Below are positions 36,053 through 50,185 of a DNA stretch of 54,885 bases, piece by piece. The position numbers and the translations under genes were made by a program. Within the stretch, counting starts at the first letter, position 1; each line of letters begins with the position of its first letter. Under the pieces are notes generated by a model that saw nothing but the letters and a program-made list of their open reading frames with translations, was not told the DNA's origin and did no database searches. Origin of the DNA: Desulfobacteraceae bacterium (lineage in GTDB: Bacteria > Desulfobacterota > DSM-4660 > Desulfatiglandales > Desulfatiglandaceae); assembly GCA_003599015.1 (NCBI GenBank), contig QZIK01000096.1, positions 1 to 54,885 of the forward strand, given 5' to 3'.

Positions 36053-36829
36053 ATGGCTGACGATTCCTGCTGTAAGTTGATTGAATCATCCTGGAACCCG
36101 GTTACCGGCTGCACCAAAATCAGCCCGGCTTGCAAAAACTGTTATGCCGAGAGATTTGCTTTGCGGCTGCAAAATATAGGCAGCCCGGCCTATAAAAACG
36201 GTTTTCAAGTCACTTTACATCCAGAACGCCTGAATTTACCGCTCAAGTGGAAAAAGCCCAGAATAGTTTTTGTTAACTCCATGGGCGATTTGTTTCATGA
36301 AGAGGTACCCGTGCCGTTCATTAAGCAGGTATTTGAAACAATGAAAACCGCTTCCCGGCATACCTTTCAACTTTTAACCAAACGTGCCGAACGCCTTGCA
36401 GAAATCTCCCCCTATTTTTGCTGGCCTGATAATATTTGGATTGGGGTAACTGTAGAAAACCAAAATTATACATGGCGTATTAACCACCTTAACCTTGTTC
36501 CTGCTATGGTGAAGTTTATTTGCATGGAGCCCCTGTTAGGTCCGGTTGCAAATTTACCCCTGGAGGGCATTGATTGGGTTATCGTGGGGGGAGAGTCCGG
36601 CCCGAAAGCCCGTGTGATGCTTATTGACTGGGTACGCCAGATCCGCGATCAATGTTTAAAAAGAAACGTGCCCTTTTACTTTAAACAGTGGGGCGGAATT
36701 TACAGGGCGGAAAAAGGCCGTTTTTTGGATGGGCGGACGTGGGATGGCATGCCCTTATGCCTAGAACCTGTACAAAGTGAAAGCGGTAATTTAACTAATG
36801 ATGATCCTGCTATTGACAACAATCCATGA
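36053..36829 (+). CDS. DUF5131 (phage Gp37/Gp68) family protein
   Basis: This 258-residue protein starts with KLIESSWNPVTGCTKISPACKNCYAERFA, the Cys-containing signature of the Gp37/Gp68 (DUF5131) family. FVNSMGDLFHEEVP, IWIGVTVENQ, FICMEPLLGPV, WVIVGGESGPKARVM and FYFKQWGG follow, in family order. The fold resembles radical SAM proteins, and three cysteines (TGC, PAC, NC) might bind a cluster. Function is unknown. The usual neighbour in phages and islands, a three-Cys-motif partner (TcmP), is not seen here. Confidence 0.85.
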   Translation: MADDSCCKLIESSWNPVTGCTKISPACKNCYAERFALRLQNIGSPAYKNGFQVTLHPERLNLPLKWKKPRIVFVNSMGDLFHEEVPVPFIKQVFETMKTASRHTFQLLTKRAERLAEISPYFCWPDNIWIGVTVENQNYTWRINHLNLVPAMVKFICMEPLLGPVANLPLEGIDWVIVGGESGPKARVMLIDWVRQIRDQCLKRNVPFYFKQWGGIYRAEKGRFLDGRTWDGMPLCLEPVQSESGNLTNDDPAIDNNP

Positions 36830-39563: not shown

Positions 39564-40107
39564 ATGGACAGTAACAGTATCAATACTGGATGGAACGCGG
39601 GAAGCTTAGGAAACTCGGCTTGGATTTCTCGGAAAAGTATAGGGAATGAGTCCAAAGTGAACTTGGGGCAAAATTTTGAGCAGCGTCAATGGGAACAGGG
39701 ATGGCTGGCTGGAAAGTTTGTACGACTGCTTCCAGATAGGGTAGAGATTTTTAAAAAGCTTGAAACTAAAAATGCGAAACGGTCTTTACTTGCACCAGGC
39801 GAAATGCATTGAACAGGCTTTAAATAGAAAGAGTGTTGCATTATGTACTTCTACCGCCTCAGGAAAATCCCTCGCTTTCACGGTCCCTCCAATAAATGAT
39901 CTAATAAAAGATAAGGATTCTTTTTCTTTTTTTATCTATCCAACCAAAGCTTTGGCGAATGACCAGATTAATAAATTAAAGCAACTGGCGAATAACCTTG
40001 GTTTGGGCGATATTATTAGAAAATATGATGGTGACGTAAGAGCTAAAGCGAGAAAAGAAGCAATTAAAAACGGCCGCATTATAGTTTGTACCCTGCATTC
40101 AACAACC
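39564..40107 (+). pseudogene. Truncated DEAD/DEAH-box helicase (N-terminal remnant)
   Basis: The frame from 39760 encodes LYLHQAKCIEQALN, CTSTASGKSLAFTVPP (Walker A region) and FFIYPTKALANDQINKLKQL (motif Ia). This is the start of a YprA/MrfA-like or DUF1998-type superfamily 2 helicase. The upstream part continues in another frame (39564-39775, ending LLPDRVEIFKKLETKN), implying a frameshift near 39775. The sequence stops at IIVCTLHSTT before motif II, next to the IS element. All later helicase motifs are missing. It is probably the left edge of a deletion in a defence-type locus. Confidence 0.7.
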
Positions 40108-42133
40108 TAAATATTGCCAAATGCAATAATTTATACTAGAAACTTGAATCTACGATAAATATTTTCAGAAATAGCGGTATTTACCATATTTTACCTTGTA
40201 CTTTTCTCCCACCTGTTGTATGATAGTGGTGGGAGGGATGACGCATGATCGAATTGTTCAACCAGGGGCCGGGCGTTAATCTCAGCTTTGTACGACCAGT
40301 TAGGCATAGGCAAGACTATCGACGAGATGGTACACTGGGATCCTGTACAGTGTCGGCTCTCACCGGGAACCCGCATCAAGGCACTGGTTATCAATATCTT
40401 CGGCCGGCAAAAGCCTTTGTACCGGCTGGATGAGTTCTTTGAGAATATGGATATTGAAAACCTTTTCGGCAAAGGTATCCACCGGGAAGACCTGACCGAT
40501 TACAACATGGCCAGAGCACTGGATAAACTGGGTGAAAGAGGGCCTTGGGAAGTCTTCTCCAGCATATGTCTTCGGGCCATCTGCCATGAGCAGATTAAGC
40601 CAAAGTACCTGCACAGCGATACCACCTCCATCTCCCTTTATGGCATGTATGAAGACCAGGACGGTAGAGAATTCATCATTACCCACGGTCACAGTAAGGA
40701 TAAGCGACCCGATTTAAAACAGTTCCTTTATGGCTTAAGTGTAACTCCCGATAAAGTGCCAGTCTGCGCCGATGTTAAAAGCGGCAACACTAGCGATAAG
40801 ACCTGGAATTTCGATTTTATTGAAAAACTGTCTGAAGCTTTGAATCCGCAAGTATTGCAAAAGGTTATCTACATCGCCGATTCGGCTTTAGTCACTGAGG
40901 ATAACCTGAAACGGATAGCAGGACACCGCCTTCAGTTCATCTCCCGTCTGCCGGGTAATTTCGGCCTGGAAAAAGAGCTCAAGGAGCAGGCCTGGCAAAA
41001 AGAAAGTGATTTTCAAGAGCCGGGGCGTTTCTCAGATAAAAAAGATGCTGCATCTTACCGTCTCCAGGAATTCAGGGAAGAGCTTTACGGGAAATGCTAC
41101 CGTTTCCTGGTAGTACACTCTACGAAGCTGGACGGCCGCAAAACCAAGACCCTGCAAAAAGAGCTATCACGCCGGGAAAAGGAGCTGCAAAAAGCCATCC
41201 AGCAGCTTGAAAAGCAGCTTTTCGCCTGTGAGCCTGATGCCAAAGCGGCCTTGGCCCTGTTCCAGAAACAGCATAAAGATAATTACTTCACCCTCAGTGG
41301 TCAGGTGGTCTGCCAGGAGAAAAGGAAACCGGGACGGCCCGGCAATAATAACCTACCGGAGGATATCTACTGCCTGAAATTGCAGTACACTGCCGACGAA
41401 GCTGCTATACAAGAGGCCAAGGAGCGCCTTAGCTGTTTTGTACTCATTACCAACCTGGATGAGGAGTACACAGCAGGTCATATCTTAAAAGAATACAAGG
41501 CGCAAAACACGGTGGAGACTTCGTTTAAGTTTCTTAAAGATCCGCTTTTTGTGGGTCCTATCTACCTGAAAAAACCTGGCCGCGTGGAGGCTTTGGCCTA
41601 TGTTTTGCTGATTGCCTTACTCATCTTCGGTATCCTGGAACGCCGGGTCCGGGAAGCGATGAAACATGAGACGGAGCCGCTGATTATCCCGGGCAAGGTG
41701 AAGACGTTCAGCCCCACCAGGAAAAAGATTTTGGAAGCTGTGGAGACGGTGCTGGTCATGACGACCGATGACCCTTACCGCCGGGCTTTTTCTAAAAGAT
41801 ACAAGGTGCCCCGGGTTCTGAAACTGGCCGGGTTTGGGCCGGATATTTATCTTGATATCCGCGACGGGCCGTAATATTACCAAATATTAACTACAATGAT
41901 TTTGGGCGGTAGGGTGTTGAATGCCCGTTTTATTGTAATATCTAGATAATCGGACTTTTTGGCGGTAATTGCAGGATTTTTTATACAAATAACGAAATAT
42001 TTCTCATATCAATAGTTGTCACTTTATTTGAAATTCGCAATTTCATAGGGTTTTTCAATAACGATTTCAGCTTGACCAATTTGAGTTACTTGTTTCCTAA
42101 ATTCTATTGAGCAGTGTTAAGTGTATACCTTGA
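40108..42133 (+). mobile_element. IS1634/IS4-type insertion element (ends unresolved)
   Basis: The interval between the broken helicase and the broken McrB-like gene holds one transposase gene and about 370 bases of non-coding DNA. I could not find convincing terminal inverted repeats. AATATT(G/A)CCAAAT occurs in direct orientation at 40112 and 41876. An IS promoter (TTGTAC, 17 bases, TATGAT at 40196-40224) precedes the transposase. The coordinates are the outer bounds of the gap, not proven ends. Confidence 0.6.
40245..41874 (+). pseudogene. IS1634-family DDE transposase, N-terminal frameshift
   Basis: The main frame gives about 528 residues of an IS4-superfamily (IS1634 group) transposase. 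It has the first catalytic Asp in KYLHSDTTSISLYG, the second in VIYIADSALVTEDN, and the Glu region TVETSFKFLKDPLFVGPIYL before a hydrophobic tail. The true start is probably ATG 40245, seven bases after GGGAGGG. That frame (MIELFNQGPGVNLS) must shift by one base near 40275-40287 to join LISALYDQLGIGKTIDEM. Either the element is inactive, or a sequencing error or programmed shift is present. Confidence 0.85.
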
Positions 42134-42697
42134 AAACCTTCCGTTCTTTATGTAATTGGCACGGTGAATATGGATGAAACCACCCATGCCTTTAGTAGAA
42201 AAGTATTGGACCGGGCCAATACTATTGAATTTTCGGAGGTATATTTGGACCGGTTCCCCTCTGTAGAGGAATCCGTTACAGTCGAGTCCAAGGAAACGCC
42301 TTTACTGGAAAACCACCTATTGCGAAGTGATTATCTCACATTGAAAGATTGTATCCATAGGAACGAGGCATATTTGCATGAAAAAGTAAAGATCTTGCAG
42401 GCGTTAAACGAGATTCTGCAACCCTGCGGTTTGCATGTGGGTTACCGGGTGCGTGATGAGTTCTGCTTTTATTTGTTATACAACAAAATATGGGAATTAT
42501 TAAGCGAAGATGAAGCCATTGATTTCCAAATCATGCAGAAGATATTGCCACGTATACAGGGAAACTCTACTGAAATTGAAAAGATGCTGGAAAAACTGAT
42601 AAAGTTTTGTGAAATTCAGTACCCGCGCAGCAGGGCAAAATGTGAATTTATGCTGGGGAGGTTCCGTGATGATGGTTTTACCTCTTTCTGGCTTTAA
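42134..42697 (+). pseudogene. McrB-like AAA+ ATPase, C-terminal stump
   Basis: After an in-frame TGA at 42131 the frame reads LYVIGTVNMDETTHAFSRKVLDRANTIEF. This is the sensor/N-loop segment of McrB-type AAA+ GTPases (TVNMDE motif), followed by about 170 C-terminal residues. Walker A and B are missing, presumably removed by the event that left the IS element. No ribosome site precedes it. Its 3' end overlaps the intact DUF2357 nuclease gene by 29 bases, the close coupling expected of McrB-McrC pairs. The system cannot be functional in its usual form. Confidence 0.85.
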
Positions 42698-45218
42698 ACC
42701 AAGGGAACTGCTGGTTGTTACTACGGAGTATTTTGAGCTATTTATCAAAGGGGTTCCGGAGAATAAAACTGTGGAGGCCTTTCGTTTACACCAGGATCAA
42801 GAGGGCAGGCCGCTGCAAGCATCCCTCGATATCAAGCCTGATGTTTATCCGGTGTATGTTTATGATCCGATTGCCCCGGAAGGGCTTAAGTTATACCATG
42901 GCGACGGTATCTACCCTTGCTTTTTTGAACAAAAGAACTATGAGCTGGTAATTGAAAAAAAAGAGGGATGTCCAGACGATCTTACGCTGGTCCATCCAAA
43001 CCGAAAACTGCGGGAGTCGGTCACACCTACAGGCAGGCAAGGTCGTGTCCTTTCAGGGATCATTAATTTTGGTGATGAAGTTGGTTTTTCCCGTTTCGAA
43101 GTGCAAGGAAATGGTAAATGCTTACTGTCTTTTGAGCTTGAAGTCTTTCCTGGGAAGATGGATTATCAGAAGGATTTCCATCGCCTGTTACAGGATGTTA
43201 ACGAAGAGGTTTATAACCTGGCTTTTGACTTTTTAATGAAGACATATCTAACTGCCGGATTAAAAAGTGAAAAGGACCCTTCTCCGGCAGAATTTTATGC
43301 AATTCTGCAAATAATTTATCGTATGCTTTTGAAAGCACTAGATCAGGTAGCCCACCACCCCCATCAAAAAATAACACCGCTAAACCAAATTGTCCGGCCG
43401 GAAAAAGTGAAAAAAGCAGATGCGGCAACAGCAAAGTGGCTTAACTCCAGGGCTTATCTGCTAGAGCGGGGGGAAGTAGGGATATCTATTGCTGCTAATA
43501 AATATGTGCCACGGAAGCTCCTGGACCGTAAAAAAGAGCGAAGCTTCGATACTTACGAAAACCGCTTTCTGAAATGGGTTATTACCCGGGTAGTCCGGAA
43601 ATTACGTGATTTTTTGCAGCGGTACCGGGATTGTTACGAGGACAATGCAGACCCTCTGCTTATAGATAATCTAGACAAGATGCGTCGGACAATGGAACGT
43701 TACTGCGCTTCTCCTTTCTTACGGGAAGTGGGATCCCTGGAACGTGTGGAAGCTTCCTCCCTGGTCATGCAGATGGCCCCCGGTTACCGGGATGTTTTTA
43801 AGTATCATCTGATGCTACTAAAAGGCCTCAATGTGCAATCAGATTTGTTTAATATCTCTCTAAAAAATACAGCAGAGTTGTATGAATACTGGTGTTTCTT
43901 AAAGCTGAATGCGTTATTGCGGAAAAAATACTACTTGGAGTGCAATGACATAATTACTGTGGAACGGCAGGGAATCGCTGTTCATTTAAGGAAGGGCAAG
44001 GAGTCTGAACTACGCTATATGAACCGTCACAACGGTGAACGATTTTCTCTGATTTACAACCGTGTTTTTACTGGCTTACCTACGACAGCGCAGAAACCGG
44101 ACAACATGTTGATCCTGGAAAAACAAGGCTCCAGTGTACGCTATCATTTTATCTTTGATGCAAAATATCGCTTAGCAGTAAATGAGGAGTATGTGCGTAA
44201 CTTTCGTCAGCCCGGACCACCGGAGGATACTATCAATACCATGCATCGCTACCGGGATGCTATTCTTGCTGGTGTTGGCATGGATGGTGATTATCAGCGA
44301 AATATTTTCGGGGCATTCGTGCTTTTTCCCCATAACGATGAGATGGCCTTCGCGGGAAAAAGGGGTTCTCTGCCCAGCCGTTTTTATGAAAGTATTGAAG
44401 TTACAGGAATTGGTGCTTTGCCATTTTTGCCATCACAAACAGTTTTGGTGGAAAACCTGCTGGATGATCTTTTCCGGGAAACACCGGAGACTGCTTTTGA
44501 ACGAACGGTTATCCAGGAAGGCACTGTAGAATATCTTGATAGTACAGCAGCAAAGAATGACGTTCTCATTGGCCCACTGGGGCGAAAAGAGCAGTTAATG
44601 GTGTGCCTTGAAAACAATATGTATTATACGTACCTAAACCGGGTGCAGTCGTTCCTGGGTGAACTCAGATACGTAGCTATATACCAATCAAAACGAAAGT
44701 TTAAGGACGTTACTGAGCAAGGTATTTTTTATTTTGGGGAGATTAATGGGTTTTCCATATGCAGACGCAAAGAGATTAAGGAAATGCCGCCGAGCAGGGA
44801 AGAAGATAAGGAAAAATTGGTAGTGAAGTTTTTTGTAGAGCAATGGTCCAGGCGAGACCCTGGCATTCTTGCCGAAGGGTATGGTCCAGCATCCCCACAG
44901 AGGACAGGCTGGCGTCTCTTTAAGGATGCAACGATTTATCCGGAATTGCACCTGGATCCCATAGAAGTTCGCCTCTGGCGAGAACTTCGCCGTTTAGATG
45001 AATGTGTAGAAGTCCATTTTCCCAAAGATACAATTAGCAGTGACGACAAAATGGAATGGCTCCTTTTCCCTGGACTCAAGGTTTGGAGAACAGGATCTGA
45101 CAGTTTTAACGTTCAAACCAATGGCCATGAAAAACATTTTCAATTTAGTGGGCTGCGTCAAAGGCCTGGAAAAACATTACGAGAGATTCTTCGCTTTTGG
45201 CAGGAGAATATTGGGTAG
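42669..45218 (+). CDS. DUF2357-domain McrC-like PD-(D/E)XK nuclease
   Basis: This protein of 849 residues is the likely nuclease partner of the McrB-like AAA+ stump. A large N-terminal part (SGFKPRELLVVTTEYFELFIKGVPEN) leads into DUF2357 features (SIAANKYVPRKLLDRKKERSFDTYENRFLKWVITRVVRKL) near residue 280. A PD-(D/E)XK-type core then appears as PDNMLILE..HFIFDAKYRL near 480-505. The C-terminal ~200 residues are of unknown function. Expanded McrBC families with DUF2357 are known as modification-dependent or RNA-linked defence. ATG 42669 follows GGGGAGG by seven bases. Without its ATPase it is probably orphaned. Confidence 0.85.
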   Translation: MMVLPLSGFKPRELLVVTTEYFELFIKGVPENKTVEAFRLHQDQEGRPLQASLDIKPDVYPVYVYDPIAPEGLKLYHGDGIYPCFFEQKNYELVIEKKEGCPDDLTLVHPNRKLRESVTPTGRQGRVLSGIINFGDEVGFSRFEVQGNGKCLLSFELEVFPGKMDYQKDFHRLLQDVNEEVYNLAFDFLMKTYLTAGLKSEKDPSPAEFYAILQIIYRMLLKALDQVAHHPHQKITPLNQIVRPEKVKKADAATAKWLNSRAYLLERGEVGISIAANKYVPRKLLDRKKERSFDTYENRFLKWVITRVVRKLRDFLQRYRDCYEDNADPLLIDNLDKMRRTMERYCASPFLREVGSLERVEASSLVMQMAPGYRDVFKYHLMLLKGLNVQSDLFNISLKNTAELYEYWCFLKLNALLRKKYYLECNDIITVERQGIAVHLRKGKESELRYMNRHNGERFSLIYNRVFTGLPTTAQKPDNMLILEKQGSSVRYHFIFDAKYRLAVNEEYVRNFRQPGPPEDTINTMHRYRDAILAGVGMDGDYQRNIFGAFVLFPHNDEMAFAGKRGSLPSRFYESIEVTGIGALPFLPSQTVLVENLLDDLFRETPETAFERTVIQEGTVEYLDSTAAKNDVLIGPLGRKEQLMVCLENNMYYTYLNRVQSFLGELRYVAIYQSKRKFKDVTEQGIFYFGEINGFSICRRKEIKEMPPSREEDKEKLVVKFFVEQWSRRDPGILAEGYGPASPQRTGWRLFKDATIYPELHLDPIEVRLWRELRRLDECVEVHFPKDTISSDDKMEWLLFPGLKVWRTGSDSFNVQTNGHEKHFQFSGLRQRPGKTLREILRFWQENIG

Positions 45219-46763: not shown

Positions 46764-47048
46764 ATGAATATAAAACCATCTGCGGCAATACGAAAAAATT
46801 ACAATGAAATTTCTACCCTGTGCAAGACCACCGGTGAACCTGTTTATCTAACGAAAAACGGTGAGGGCGACTTAGTGGTTATGGATATTGCCACGTTTTC
46901 CCGGCGTGAAAGCATGTTGAGGCTGCGGGAACAGCTTGTTGCAGTCGAGGAGGACAGACTGGCGGGTAAAAATGGCTTTTCCATCGACGAAACGGACGAG
47001 ATGATGAAAAAAGCAATTAAAGAGGCTGCCGATGAGCAGCGCAGTTAA
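46764..47048 (+). CDS. Type II antitoxin, Phd/YefM family
   Basis: This is a 94-residue antitoxin: residues ~1-55 form the DNA-binding Phd/YefM domain (MNIKPSAAIRKNYNEISTLCKTTGEPVYLTKNGEGDLVVMDIATF). The tail is acidic and likely flexible, wrapping the toxin. The ATG follows GGGGAGG. It overlaps the toxin gene by 17 bases, typical for co-translated antitoxin-toxin pairs. The complex should repress its own promoter. Confidence 0.9.
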   Translation: MNIKPSAAIRKNYNEISTLCKTTGEPVYLTKNGEGDLVVMDIATFSRRESMLRLREQLVAVEEDRLAGKNGFSIDETDEMMKKAIKEAADEQRS

Positions 47049-47349
47049 ACGATATCATGTGATTATCTCGGAAAGAGCGGGAGAAATGCTCGTACAGCAT
47101 ACTCGCTTTTTAGCGCAGGTAAGCACCCGGGCTGCTGATAAAATGAGAAGAGATGTGGTCGAGACTGCAAAGTCCCTGCAGGAGTTCCCGGAGCGTGGTT
47201 CCTGGCTCGCCGATCCCCTGTTACCCGCAAATAAATACAGAAAACTGCTCGTTGATAAGAAGTATCTCCTCATCTATCAAATCAGGGAAAACACAGTATA
47301 CATAGACTACATAGTTGATTGCCGCCAGAATTATCTCTGGCTGATATAA
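47032..47349 (+). CDS. Type II toxin, RelE/ParE superfamily
   Basis: This 105-residue toxin has the RelE/ParE layout: an initial strand (KRYHVIISERAGEMLVQHTRFLAQVS), two helices, PERGSWLADPLLPANKYRKLLVDKKYLLIYQI, and a final VYIDYIVDCRQNY strand. Members either cleave mRNA on the ribosome or poison gyrase; which applies here is not visible. It overlaps the Phd-type antitoxin. After it, to 47681, lie only a possible coding relic (LKPRLVFPNRDEVEYIVPVKK at 47350-47510) and the next module's control region. Confidence 0.9.
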   Translation: MSSAVKRYHVIISERAGEMLVQHTRFLAQVSTRAADKMRRDVVETAKSLQEFPERGSWLADPLLPANKYRKLLVDKKYLLIYQIRENTVYIDYIVDCRQNYLWLI

Positions 47350-47657: not shown

Positions 47658-47681
47658 GTAAGACAAGAGGAGGTGGTGTTG

Positions 47682-47924
47682 ATGTTAACAGTGAGAATAT
47701 CTAAAAAAATGGAACGTGAACTTGACATTTTGTCACAACAGCTTCACGTGACAAAATCAGAAATAGTAAAAAAGGCAATATCTGAATATATCAAGAATGT
47801 TAGCAATAGCCCTTACGAAACAGGAAAAGACCTGTTTGGATGTGATGACAGCAATATTGTCGACGGTTCCACAAGTTATAAGCAAAATGTCAGGAGACGT
47901 GTTCATGAAAAGCATTCTCATTGA
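47682..47924 (+). CDS. Ribbon-helix-helix antitoxin (CopG/RHH type)
   Basis: This 80-residue protein has an N-terminal RHH DNA-binding domain (MLTVRISKKMERELDILSQQLHVTKSEIVKKAISEYI) and a charged C-terminal tail for toxin binding. The ATG at 47682 is seven bases after GAGGAGGTG; the ORF track adds three upstream codons. It overlaps the PIN toxin gene by 20 bases and sits behind its own promoter and repeat operator. Confidence 0.88.
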   Translation: MLTVRISKKMERELDILSQQLHVTKSEIVKKAISEYIKNVSNSPYETGKDLFGCDDSNIVDGSTSYKQNVRRRVHEKHSH

Positions 47925-48312
47925 TGCAGGACCCATTATTGCACTTTATCGAAAAAACGATTCATACCATGAAAAAGCGTTGGAATTTATAAAAAAATTT
48001 CAGGGACGCCTGATTACCACATGGCCTGTAGTTACAGAGGTTATGCACGAATTATATAGGCCGGATGTTCAGGAAAAATTTTTATTATGGATAGAAAGAG
48101 GCGGTCTTGAAATTGCCTATATGGACCAGGATTCAGTTTCCGGTTTGCTTAAACTTATCAAAAAATATTCTGATATTCCTATGGACTTTGCTGATGCCAC
48201 ATTAATGCTCTATGCAGAAAAGACGGGAATAACTGAAATAGCAACTGTAGATTCTGATTTCCATATATATCGAACGGCAAAAAAAGACTATTTAAAAAAC
48301 ATATTCCTATGA
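47905..48312 (+). CDS. PIN-domain toxin (VapC-like ribonuclease)
   Basis: This 135-residue PIN nuclease has acidic active-site residues in the usual order: ILIDAGPIIALYRKND (first Asp), TWPVVTEVMHEL (Glu), PMDFADATLMLYAEKTG (Asp) and TVDSDF (Asp). VapC-type toxins cleave tRNA or rRNA. The ATG at 47905 follows AGGAG by eight bases, within the antitoxin gene. The ORF track's longer start at 47797 would lie in the antitoxin and lacks a ribosome site. Confidence 0.9.
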   Translation: MKSILIDAGPIIALYRKNDSYHEKALEFIKKFQGRLITTWPVVTEVMHELYRPDVQEKFLLWIERGGLEIAYMDQDSVSGLLKLIKKYSDIPMDFADATLMLYAEKTGITEIATVDSDFHIYRTAKKDYLKNIFL

Positions 48313-48403: not shown

Positions 48404-49195
48404 GTTGGGCGCTGTTGGAGGATGCTTCAGATGAAGCCCTCGCGGCGGCGGAAAAGGCGTTGGATGCTGCTGTCCTGGAAAGGAATCAGGTTGAAAATGA
48501 ACTGAAGCAATTGGAGGCCCGGTTTAATGAGGCAAAAGAGGTGTGGCAGCTCGTCCAGAGCCTTGAGGAAATCGACAAAAAAGAGCAGCAGCACCTTTTT
48601 TATAAAGAAGAGGTAAATGAAAAACGAAGCCGGCTTGAAAAAGCGGTGAAGGCAGCCGGATTATTGGAGATGATCACGAAGACAAGGCAATTGTCAAGAG
48701 AAGCTTTCAGAGACGGTACGGCGGCTGGATGAAGTATTCGCCAAGCTGCCGCTTGTTGCTGCCGGCTTAGCTGAGACCCGTAATCTGTATGATGGACTGA
48801 AGGAAGAAGCTGAATTGGAGAAACCAAAGCTTATGGCCTTAAAGACAAGGCTGTCTGACGCTCTGGAGATAAAAATGGAGATTAAAAATCTGGAGCTGAA
48901 AATCGGCGAACTTTCTGCAGCAGGGGCGAAGCTGGGAGAGAGTATTGCGGCCAGGAATGAAGCTGTATTCCGGGAAAGCAGTGAGGTTGAAGCCGCAGAA
49001 CAAAAAATAAAGATGCTGAAAGGGGAAATGGAACCCTTAAAAACAGATCCGGAGCACAGGCACAGGGTTCAGGAAGGGGTAAAGCTTGAAAATGAGGTAG
49101 AAACCAAAAGCAGGAATGTGAGCGAGCTTAACAAAAAAATAGAGTCATTGCATAAAGCTGGAAGCACCGCCAGGACGATATCGTGGCCCGTTATA
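48404..49195 (+). pseudogene. SbcC-like coiled-coil ATPase fragment
   Basis: Two frames joined by a shift near 48700 give a long heptad-rich coiled coil. The first (48415-48730) includes ALDAAVLERNQVENELKQLE and ARFNEAKEVWQLVQSLEEID, and the second includes KLSETVRRLDEVFAKLP. This resembles the middle of the DNA-repair nuclease subunit SbcC. No nucleotide-binding ends or hook are present. The second frame runs without a stop into the downstream dehydrogenase, so automatic annotation may fuse them. It is a relic. Confidence 0.7.
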
Positions 49196-49219
49196 AAAAT
49201 TACTGAAAGAGGTGAAAAA

Positions 49220-50185
49220 ATGATCTACCTGACCAGGAAAATTCCCGAACCTGCCCTGCAGTACCTGCAGGAGCGCTTTGCCTGCCGCTTTTGGGAGGAA
49301 GAGAACATCCCCGTTCCCCGTGAAGTATTGCGGCGTGAAGTGGGGGAGGCGGAAGGCCTGTACTGCATGCTTTCGGACCGCATCGACCGTGAAGTAATAG
49401 ATGCAGCTCCCCGGCTAAAGGTGATCAGCACCATGGCCGTGGGCTTTGATAACATTGATGTGGAATATGCCCGGCAGAGGGGTATTATTGTAACCCATAC
49501 TCCCGGAGTTCTGACAGAGGCCACCGCTGACCTGGCCTTTGCCCTGCTTATGGCTGCCGGCCGCAGGTTGATTGAAGCCAACCGGGCTATTTACCGGGGA
49601 GAATGGAAAACGTGGGGACCCCTGTTCATGGCCGGGCGGGATATATACGGCGCCTCCCTGGGGATTATCGGCCTGGGCCGTATTGGCCAGGCCATGGCCC
49701 GCCGGGCGCGGGGCTTTGCCATGAAGGTTTATTACTTCTCCCGCCGCCGCAACATGGAGCTTGAAGAAAAAGAAGGCATTACCTATTTGCCGCTTGAGGA
49801 ATTGCTTAAGAGCTGTGATTTTGTTTCCCTGCACGTGCCAGCTATTCCAGAAACCACCGGTATGATCGGCCCCAAAGAACTGGCTGTGATGAAGCCTACT
49901 GCAATACTGATTAATACCGCCCGCGGCACGGTGGTAGATGAGAATGCCCTGTACCAGGCCTTAAAATCCGGGACAATCTATGCCGCCGGCCTGGACGTCT
50001 TTGCCGTCGAACCGGTAGACCCGAATCATCCCCTGTTGCAGCTTCCCAATGTAGTGGCCCTCCCCCATATTGGCAGCGCCAGTATCGAAACCCGCTACAA
50101 AATGGCCCGGCTGGCCGCCGAGGACCTGTTGCGTGTCTTAAACGGGGAGCAGCCACGCTTCCCGGTACCGGGAGGTTTGACCTGA
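49220..50185 (+). CDS. D-2-hydroxyacid dehydrogenase (glyoxylate/hydroxypyruvate reductase)
   Basis: This is a 321-residue NAD(P) enzyme with the D-isomer-specific layout. It has a substrate domain (MIYLTRKIPEPALQYLQERF), the Rossmann loop GIIGLGRIGQAMARRARGF near 150, catalytic Arg in INTARGTVVDE, Glu in AVEPVDPNHPL, and His in VVALPHIGSAS. It likely reduces hydroxypyruvate or glyoxylate to D-glycerate or glycolate. The ATG lies seven bases after AGAGGTG. The ORF track extends upstream into the SbcC-like relic. A glycerate kinase gene follows after two bases, so the pair should feed glycerate into glycolysis. Confidence 0.92.
   Translation: MIYLTRKIPEPALQYLQERFACRFWEEENIPVPREVLRREVGEAEGLYCMLSDRIDREVIDAAPRLKVISTMAVGFDNIDVEYARQRGIIVTHTPGVLTEATADLAFALLMAAGRRLIEANRAIYRGEWKTWGPLFMAGRDIYGASLGIIGLGRIGQAMARRARGFAMKVYYFSRRRNMELEEKEGITYLPLEELLKSCDFVSLHVPAIPETTGMIGPKELAVMKPTAILINTARGTVVDENALYQALKSGTIYAAGLDVFAVEPVDPNHPLLQLPNVVALPHIGSASIETRYKMARLAAEDLLRVLNGEQPRFPVPGGLT

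Follow-up and report, generated by a model that had tools for sequence, protein, structure and literature searches.

The question raised by this locus is whether two broken genes, an insertion sequence (IS) lying between them and an intact nuclease gene are what remains of one defence system, or of genes that came to lie together without being partners. An earlier note had favoured the former, with a superfamily 2 (SF2) helicase gene losing its C-terminus and a McrB-like AAA+ gene losing its N-terminus at the IS in one deletion. The window, that is the whole stretch of DNA analysed, comprises bases 1-54885 of contig C3, which is one of the 149 contigs of a 3.0-Mb MAG with a completeness of 66%. 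Between 39564 and 45218 a helicase fragment, the IS, a non-coding spacer, an AAA+ stump and the nuclease gene follow each other in this order, all on the + strand. Upstream of these, an intact gene encoding a DUF5131 (phage Gp37/Gp68-like) protein (window 36053-36829) precedes an aldehyde ferredoxin oxidoreductase gene. Downstream of the nuclease gene, two small toxin-antitoxin-like pairs were found (window 46764-47349 and 47673-48312), one consisting of Phd/YefM and ParE, the other of a ribbon-helix-helix protein and a PIN-like ORF that had no Pfam match. Further downstream (window 48415-50185), coiled-coil-like segments without a Pfam match precede a D-2-hydroxyacid dehydrogenase and are fused to it in frame over ~130 residues; this is possibly another gene remnant of the decaying region.

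What remains of the left gene (39564-40091, + strand) encodes the N-terminal part of an SF2 helicase of the YprA/MrfA family. An ORF at 39760-40110 (+ strand) carries the Q motif, Walker A, Ia and Ib, and its RecA1 region (39760-40107) matched PF00270 with an E of 1.5e-17. The best solved relative of the fragment was MrfA/YprA (6znp, E 2.2e-14), which bears out the assignment as an SF2 helicase stump, and the closest genomic relatives were YprA-family proteins of ~760-1100 aa with 34-44% identity. In tblastn searches, full-length YprA proteins matched the window only from ~39730-39784 rightward, up to the IS, and with the same type of query neither RecA2 nor DUF1998 nor any other C-terminal part of YprA was found elsewhere in the window. 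The helicase homology ends exactly at the left end of the IS (40092), as set by its terminal inverted repeat, ahead of the NPDMLH segment and motif II, and ~110 residues of the core remain; the left gene has indeed lost its C-terminus at the IS. An LH...ILP match at 40095-40140, by which the helicase would extend into the IS, was rejected because the invariant NPDM is absent and because the inverted repeat sets the boundary of the IS at 40092. A second ORF (39564-39812, + strand) gave no match of its own; in size and position it would correspond to the ~70 N-terminal residues that the helicase lacks, which it may encode. Since this ORF and the RecA1 core (from ~39760) are in different frames, the helicase gene likely also suffered a frameshift near 39770-39810 that is independent of the IS.

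The IS spans 1836 bp (40092-41927, + strand) and its presence was confirmed: a transposase of 528 aa is encoded in an open frame at 40288-41874 (+ strand) and belongs to the IS1634 family (NF033559, E 3.6e-96), with additional matches to DUF4277 and DDE_Tnp_1. The ends of the element at 40092 and 41927 are given by the terminal inverted repeats CCTGCATTCAACAACCTA / CGGGCATTCAACACCCTA, which are 18 bp long with 3 mismatches. Their core (40095-40109/41910-41924) agrees at 14 of 15 positions, a match reached in none of 40 shuffles. A second copy of the IS was found neither in this genome assembly, in which it is single-copy, nor in the class. Since further copies were absent, the boundaries were cross-checked with a relative from Halococcus (locus L119), whose transposase is 40% identical and whose terminal inverted repeats match the ends of the IS. 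Members of the IS1634 family are 1.5-2.0 kb in size, carry inverted repeats with C as the first base and usually generate AT-rich duplications of 5-6 bp, and IS1634 and IS1549 are able to make long, variable target duplications (PMC2266710). The IS in the window agrees with this family in transposase, size and a terminal inverted repeat beginning with C but, unlike what is usual there, is not flanked by a target duplication. No target-site duplication, short (5-6 bp) or long, was seen at the IS; the flanks read TTGTAC on the left and TTTTAT on the right. Therefore, at least one flank appears to have been rearranged or replaced after insertion.

The right end of the IS is followed by a non-coding spacer of ~190 bp (41928 to ~42120) with a GC content of ~30% and stops in all three frames, for which no homologue was found by blastn or blastx among the loci compared. 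Homology to McrB is firm from 42137, possibly from ~42100-42120, and extends to 42691; one search stretched it weakly to 42101, thereby crossing a stop. The stump itself (42137-42697, + strand) is the C-terminal end of a McrB-like AAA+ GTPase: it is 61% identical to residues 544-724 of the 725-aa McrB of locus L006, retaining the last ~185 residues, and matched the PADLOC profile PDC-M26A (E 1.3e-9). It starts at the NxD signature (GTVNMDE; GTVNMDETTH), the Walker A and Walker B region is absent and everything before sensor 1 is missing. Thus, the identity of the McrB-like stump was confirmed, but the AAA+ gene was not cut at the IS as had been supposed, because the spacer with its stops separates the end of the IS from the McrB homology. 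For one IS-linked deletion to account for both breaks, its end would have to lie within the spacer, ~190 bp from the IS; therefore, the idea that one such deletion fused both genes is not supported, and at least two events would have produced the two stumps.

The nuclease gene overlaps the stump. Its longest ORF (42609-45218) has 869 aa, and the frame read from the ATG at 42669 is open over 849 codons (42669-45218, + strand), with a GGGGAGG ribosome-binding site inside the McrB stump. The 849-aa product is a McrC-type protein that matched PF09823 (DUF2357) with an E of 8.4e-72 and PF04411 (PDDEXK_7) with an E of 3e-44, and has an N-terminal beta-rich region followed by DUF2357, a PD-(D/E)xK nuclease domain and a predicted C-terminal EVE/YTH-like domain. 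The catalytic residues P477 D478 / D497-A-K499 are invariant in 15 homologues. Among 89 positions invariant in nine other close relatives, the nuclease departs at two, the closest intact relatives at one to three. These values agree with the earlier description as an intact DUF2357 nuclease, and judged by its sequence the gene is not yet measurably decayed. The AlphaFold2 (AF2) model of the protein had a mean pLDDT of 78.7, and its top fold in Foldseek was McrC of E. coli McrBC (6hz4, E 1.8e-6). PDC-M26B was matched weakly (E 1.6e-5) over ~100 residues. The last 238 residues (44502-45215, + strand), comprising the EVE/YTH-like domain and a C-terminal extension, gave no Pfam match above threshold. 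Modelled alone with AF2 they reached a pLDDT of 88.9 and a pTM of 0.83, and the nearest folds in Foldseek were of EVE type (2p5d, 1wmm/2hd9), followed by many YTH domains, with probabilities of 0.8-1.0 but modest scores otherwise (E 0.004-0.05, TM 0.3-0.5). This part is a probable EVE/YTH-like (PUA-like) reader of modified bases; the occurrence of EVE-superfamily domains on McrC is already on record (PMC11090510).

Among 84,980 species genomes scanned, ten loci with close relatives of the nuclease (31-55% identity, L006-L015) and seven with distant ones were found; scans of IMG/VR with the nuclease and the helicase revealed no relatives. Wherever the flanking DNA suffices, the close nucleases are paired with a McrB whose gene overlaps or directly precedes theirs. 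The stump and the nuclease of the window are co-linear with the adjacent, overlapping genes of L006 (61% and 55%, respectively) and with eight further intact pairs, which bears out that the intact nuclease adjoins its own dead ATPase. The McrBs of these pairs carry GISGTGK[ST], DEMNL and GTVNMDE, and much of each protein matches PDC-M26A (1.8e-48 to 1e-59), whereas the stump keeps the NxD alone; N-M-D or N-V/I-D was present in all relatives in which the motif was located. The N-termini of McrB vary among the intact relatives, with MrcB_N in L008 and EVE plus MrcB_N in L010. Together, L006 and L008-L015 form a small intact family of NxD McrB/DUF2357 pairs, with a nuclease seemingly tipped by a modified-base reader, that lends itself to testing. 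In Paenibacillus dauci (L008:4-7338) the intact pair lies directly beside the phosphorothioation genes DndFGH, and in Cellulosilyticum (L013:2108-8136) directly beside DndA-E. The idea that Dnd generally partners the pair was considered and rejected, since DndC and DndH occur in only two of the ten genomes with the pair (L008 and L013; neither is found in the other eight) and DndC was not found in the genome of the window; Dnd remains a lead.

Was the YprA-type helicase then part of the same system? With six full-length YprA proteins as queries, no YprA helicase was detected (E<=1e-3) in any of 26 distinct DUF2357 loci and, conversely, the stump, the nuclease and the L006 McrB detected no McrB/nuclease pair in 32 distinct YprA loci, most of them covered with ~9 kb on each side. 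The flanks compared were mostly 2-10 kb long (less than 4 kb in L005 and L007), and a rarer or more distant association of YprA could escape at this scale. YprA loci on plasmids were surrounded by host or replicon genes, and McrBC was absent from those parts that were annotated or tested. In three of the eight close loci with upstream sequence, another helicase immediately precedes the intact pair: a NERD-UvrD (SF1) protein in L006, a ResIII/SNF2-type SF2 protein in L011 and a DpdF/C3a193-like SF2 protein in L012. In two-sequence comparison the helicase of the window was 24% identical to that of L012 (E 2e-4) and showed no significant similarity to that of L011, as against 39% (E 5e-24) to a true YprA protein. 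The expected co-occurrence of helicases with the pair was thus found with respect to other families, but gene order is not conserved and the YprA helicase never recurs; these neighbours are best read as mixed defence-island company and not as a conserved operon. The features of a YprA-family defence cassette (DISARM-like/ARMADA) with McrBC were also lacking: within the window no PglX, SNF2/BrxHII-like helicase or DrmB gene was found near the stump. Because no YprA helicase was found in the 26 DUF2357 loci and the neighbouring helicases are unrelated and of three families, the proposed ancestral SF2 helicase/McrB/DUF2357 system is not supported. Most likely, helicase and pair were separate genes of one island or were joined by rearrangement.

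These data allow the possible histories of the locus to be weighed. That an SF2 helicase, a McrB-like motor and a DUF2357 nuclease once formed a single system, which collapsed in one IS-linked deletion, would account for the common strand and the order of the parts, and the missing target duplication, from which the loss of a flank follows, fits it as well; yet the break in McrB lies ~190 bp from the end of the IS. The helicases upstream of the pairs in L006, L011 and L012 count in its favour and suggest that loci of this type tend to attract helicases, but they come from three other families, and YprA and the pair were never found together in the 26 and 32 loci searched. Similarly, YprA cassettes have been associated with canonical McrBC operons (PMC11090510, PMC12458937), but the published census assigns these DISARM-like cassettes to NxxD branches of McrBC, the stump has NxD and not NxxD, and the same census treats NxD systems as a branch of their own, in which McrC bears additional domains (PMC11090510). 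We consider this history unlikely. It is very unlikely that NxD McrB, EVE/YTH-tipped McrC and a YprA/MrfA helicase formed one three-part system in this lineage; if they did, the combination would differ from the NxxD/DISARM-like associations described so far, with this locus as the only trace of it sampled. A chimaeric assembly, which alone would have brought the helicase stump next to the McrB/nuclease relic at the IS, is conceivable for a MAG in which the IS flanks share no target duplication, but the IS is single-copy in the assembly and hence provides no evident repeat over which a misjoin could have occurred, and the window is a single contig among 149; this is highly improbable.

The probable explanation, which we hold with fair confidence, is that the locus preserves the remains of an NxD-branch McrBC-type (Type IV-like) module and that the YprA-family helicase gene beside it, likewise broken, is unrelated. 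By analogy with characterised McrBC (PMC11090510), a hexamer of the McrB-like AAA+ GTPase would have engaged nucleic acid through an N-terminal target-recognition domain, and McrC would have docked through DUF2357, stimulated GTP hydrolysis and been carried along or placed for cleavage by its PD-(D/E)xK domain; through the predicted EVE/YTH-like domain the nuclease may also have recognised a modified base, which would suggest such a base as the trigger. Modified nucleic acid was thus the probable substrate of the ancestral module. Since McrB lost everything before sensor 1, the motor would be unable to bind nucleotide and the module would be inactive; its restriction function is very probably lost. 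The IS would have inserted into the helicase gene or rearranged it, and the 5' part of mcrB would have been lost in one or more additional events; the order of these events we infer. Loss of the motor looks recent because the frame of the nuclease is still undecayed. The open frame of 849 codons, the conserved catalytic residues and the good ribosome-binding site could also mean that the orphan nuclease is still in use, alone via its EVE/YTH-like domain or in trans with another McrB, for example the intact NxD McrB-like gene at G000:C37. Recent loss accounts for the open frame equally well, however, and rescue by the C37 motor is unlikely because that McrB is only 31% identical and has a McrC-like neighbour of its own. 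McrC nucleases act through McrB, as established for E. coli McrBC, which also speaks against action alone, and we regard continued use as quite unlikely. With the remains of an NxD-branch module beside an unrelated helicase gene as the preferred reading, the tempting three-gene system would be an accident of decay, and the effort of its reconstruction is saved.

One of the closest known systems is the PADLOC candidate system PDC-M26, with which the window shares the two-gene order of a McrB-like protein (PDC-M26A) and a nuclease (PDC-M26B). In contrast to PDC-M26, McrB of the window is the C-terminal end alone and the match to PDC-M26B spans only ~100 residues; a literature search for the name PDC-M26 gave no match. 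In E. coli K-12 McrBC (Type IV) an AAA+ GTPase gene likewise overlaps a gene for a DUF2357 plus PD-(D/E)xK protein, and the model of the nuclease matches the fold of McrC in 6hz4, but the window differs in having NxD instead of NxxD, extra N- and C-terminal domains on McrC and a destroyed motor gene. With the NxD branch of Bell et al. 2024 (PMC11090510), which includes the CoCoNuTs, the locus agrees in NxD followed by E and in a McrC with added domains, among them beta-sandwich-like and EVE-superfamily ones. Unlike many CoCoNuTs, the nuclease keeps its active-site residues, and for the L006 McrB Pfam showed neither a coiled-coil nor a cold-shock match. Elsewhere in the genome of the window there is a separate CoCoNuT-like operon that appears intact (G000:C37:15646-22766, corresponding to L110:3647-10767, - strand); it encodes a coiled-coil-rich McrB of 827 aa with the NxD motif GTMNEDES, a McrC-like protein of 575 aa (weak DUF2357, E 0.013) and a protein of 969 aa without a Pfam match. 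Within the MrfA/YprA family, to which the helicases of DISARM, Dpd, Druantia and ARMADA also belong (PMC12458937), the RecA1 of the window is closest to stand-alone/MrfA-type YprA proteins (6znp; 35-44% identity), but the stump lacks DUF1998 and RecA2. Of what makes up a McrBC-type module, a McrC with DUF2357 and PD-(D/E)xK is present and an adjacent McrB with Walker A, Walker B and Nx(x)D is not. As far as its sequence can tell, the locus is a relic and not a working member of McrBC-type restriction, a decayed representative of an already known, PDC-M26-like kind.
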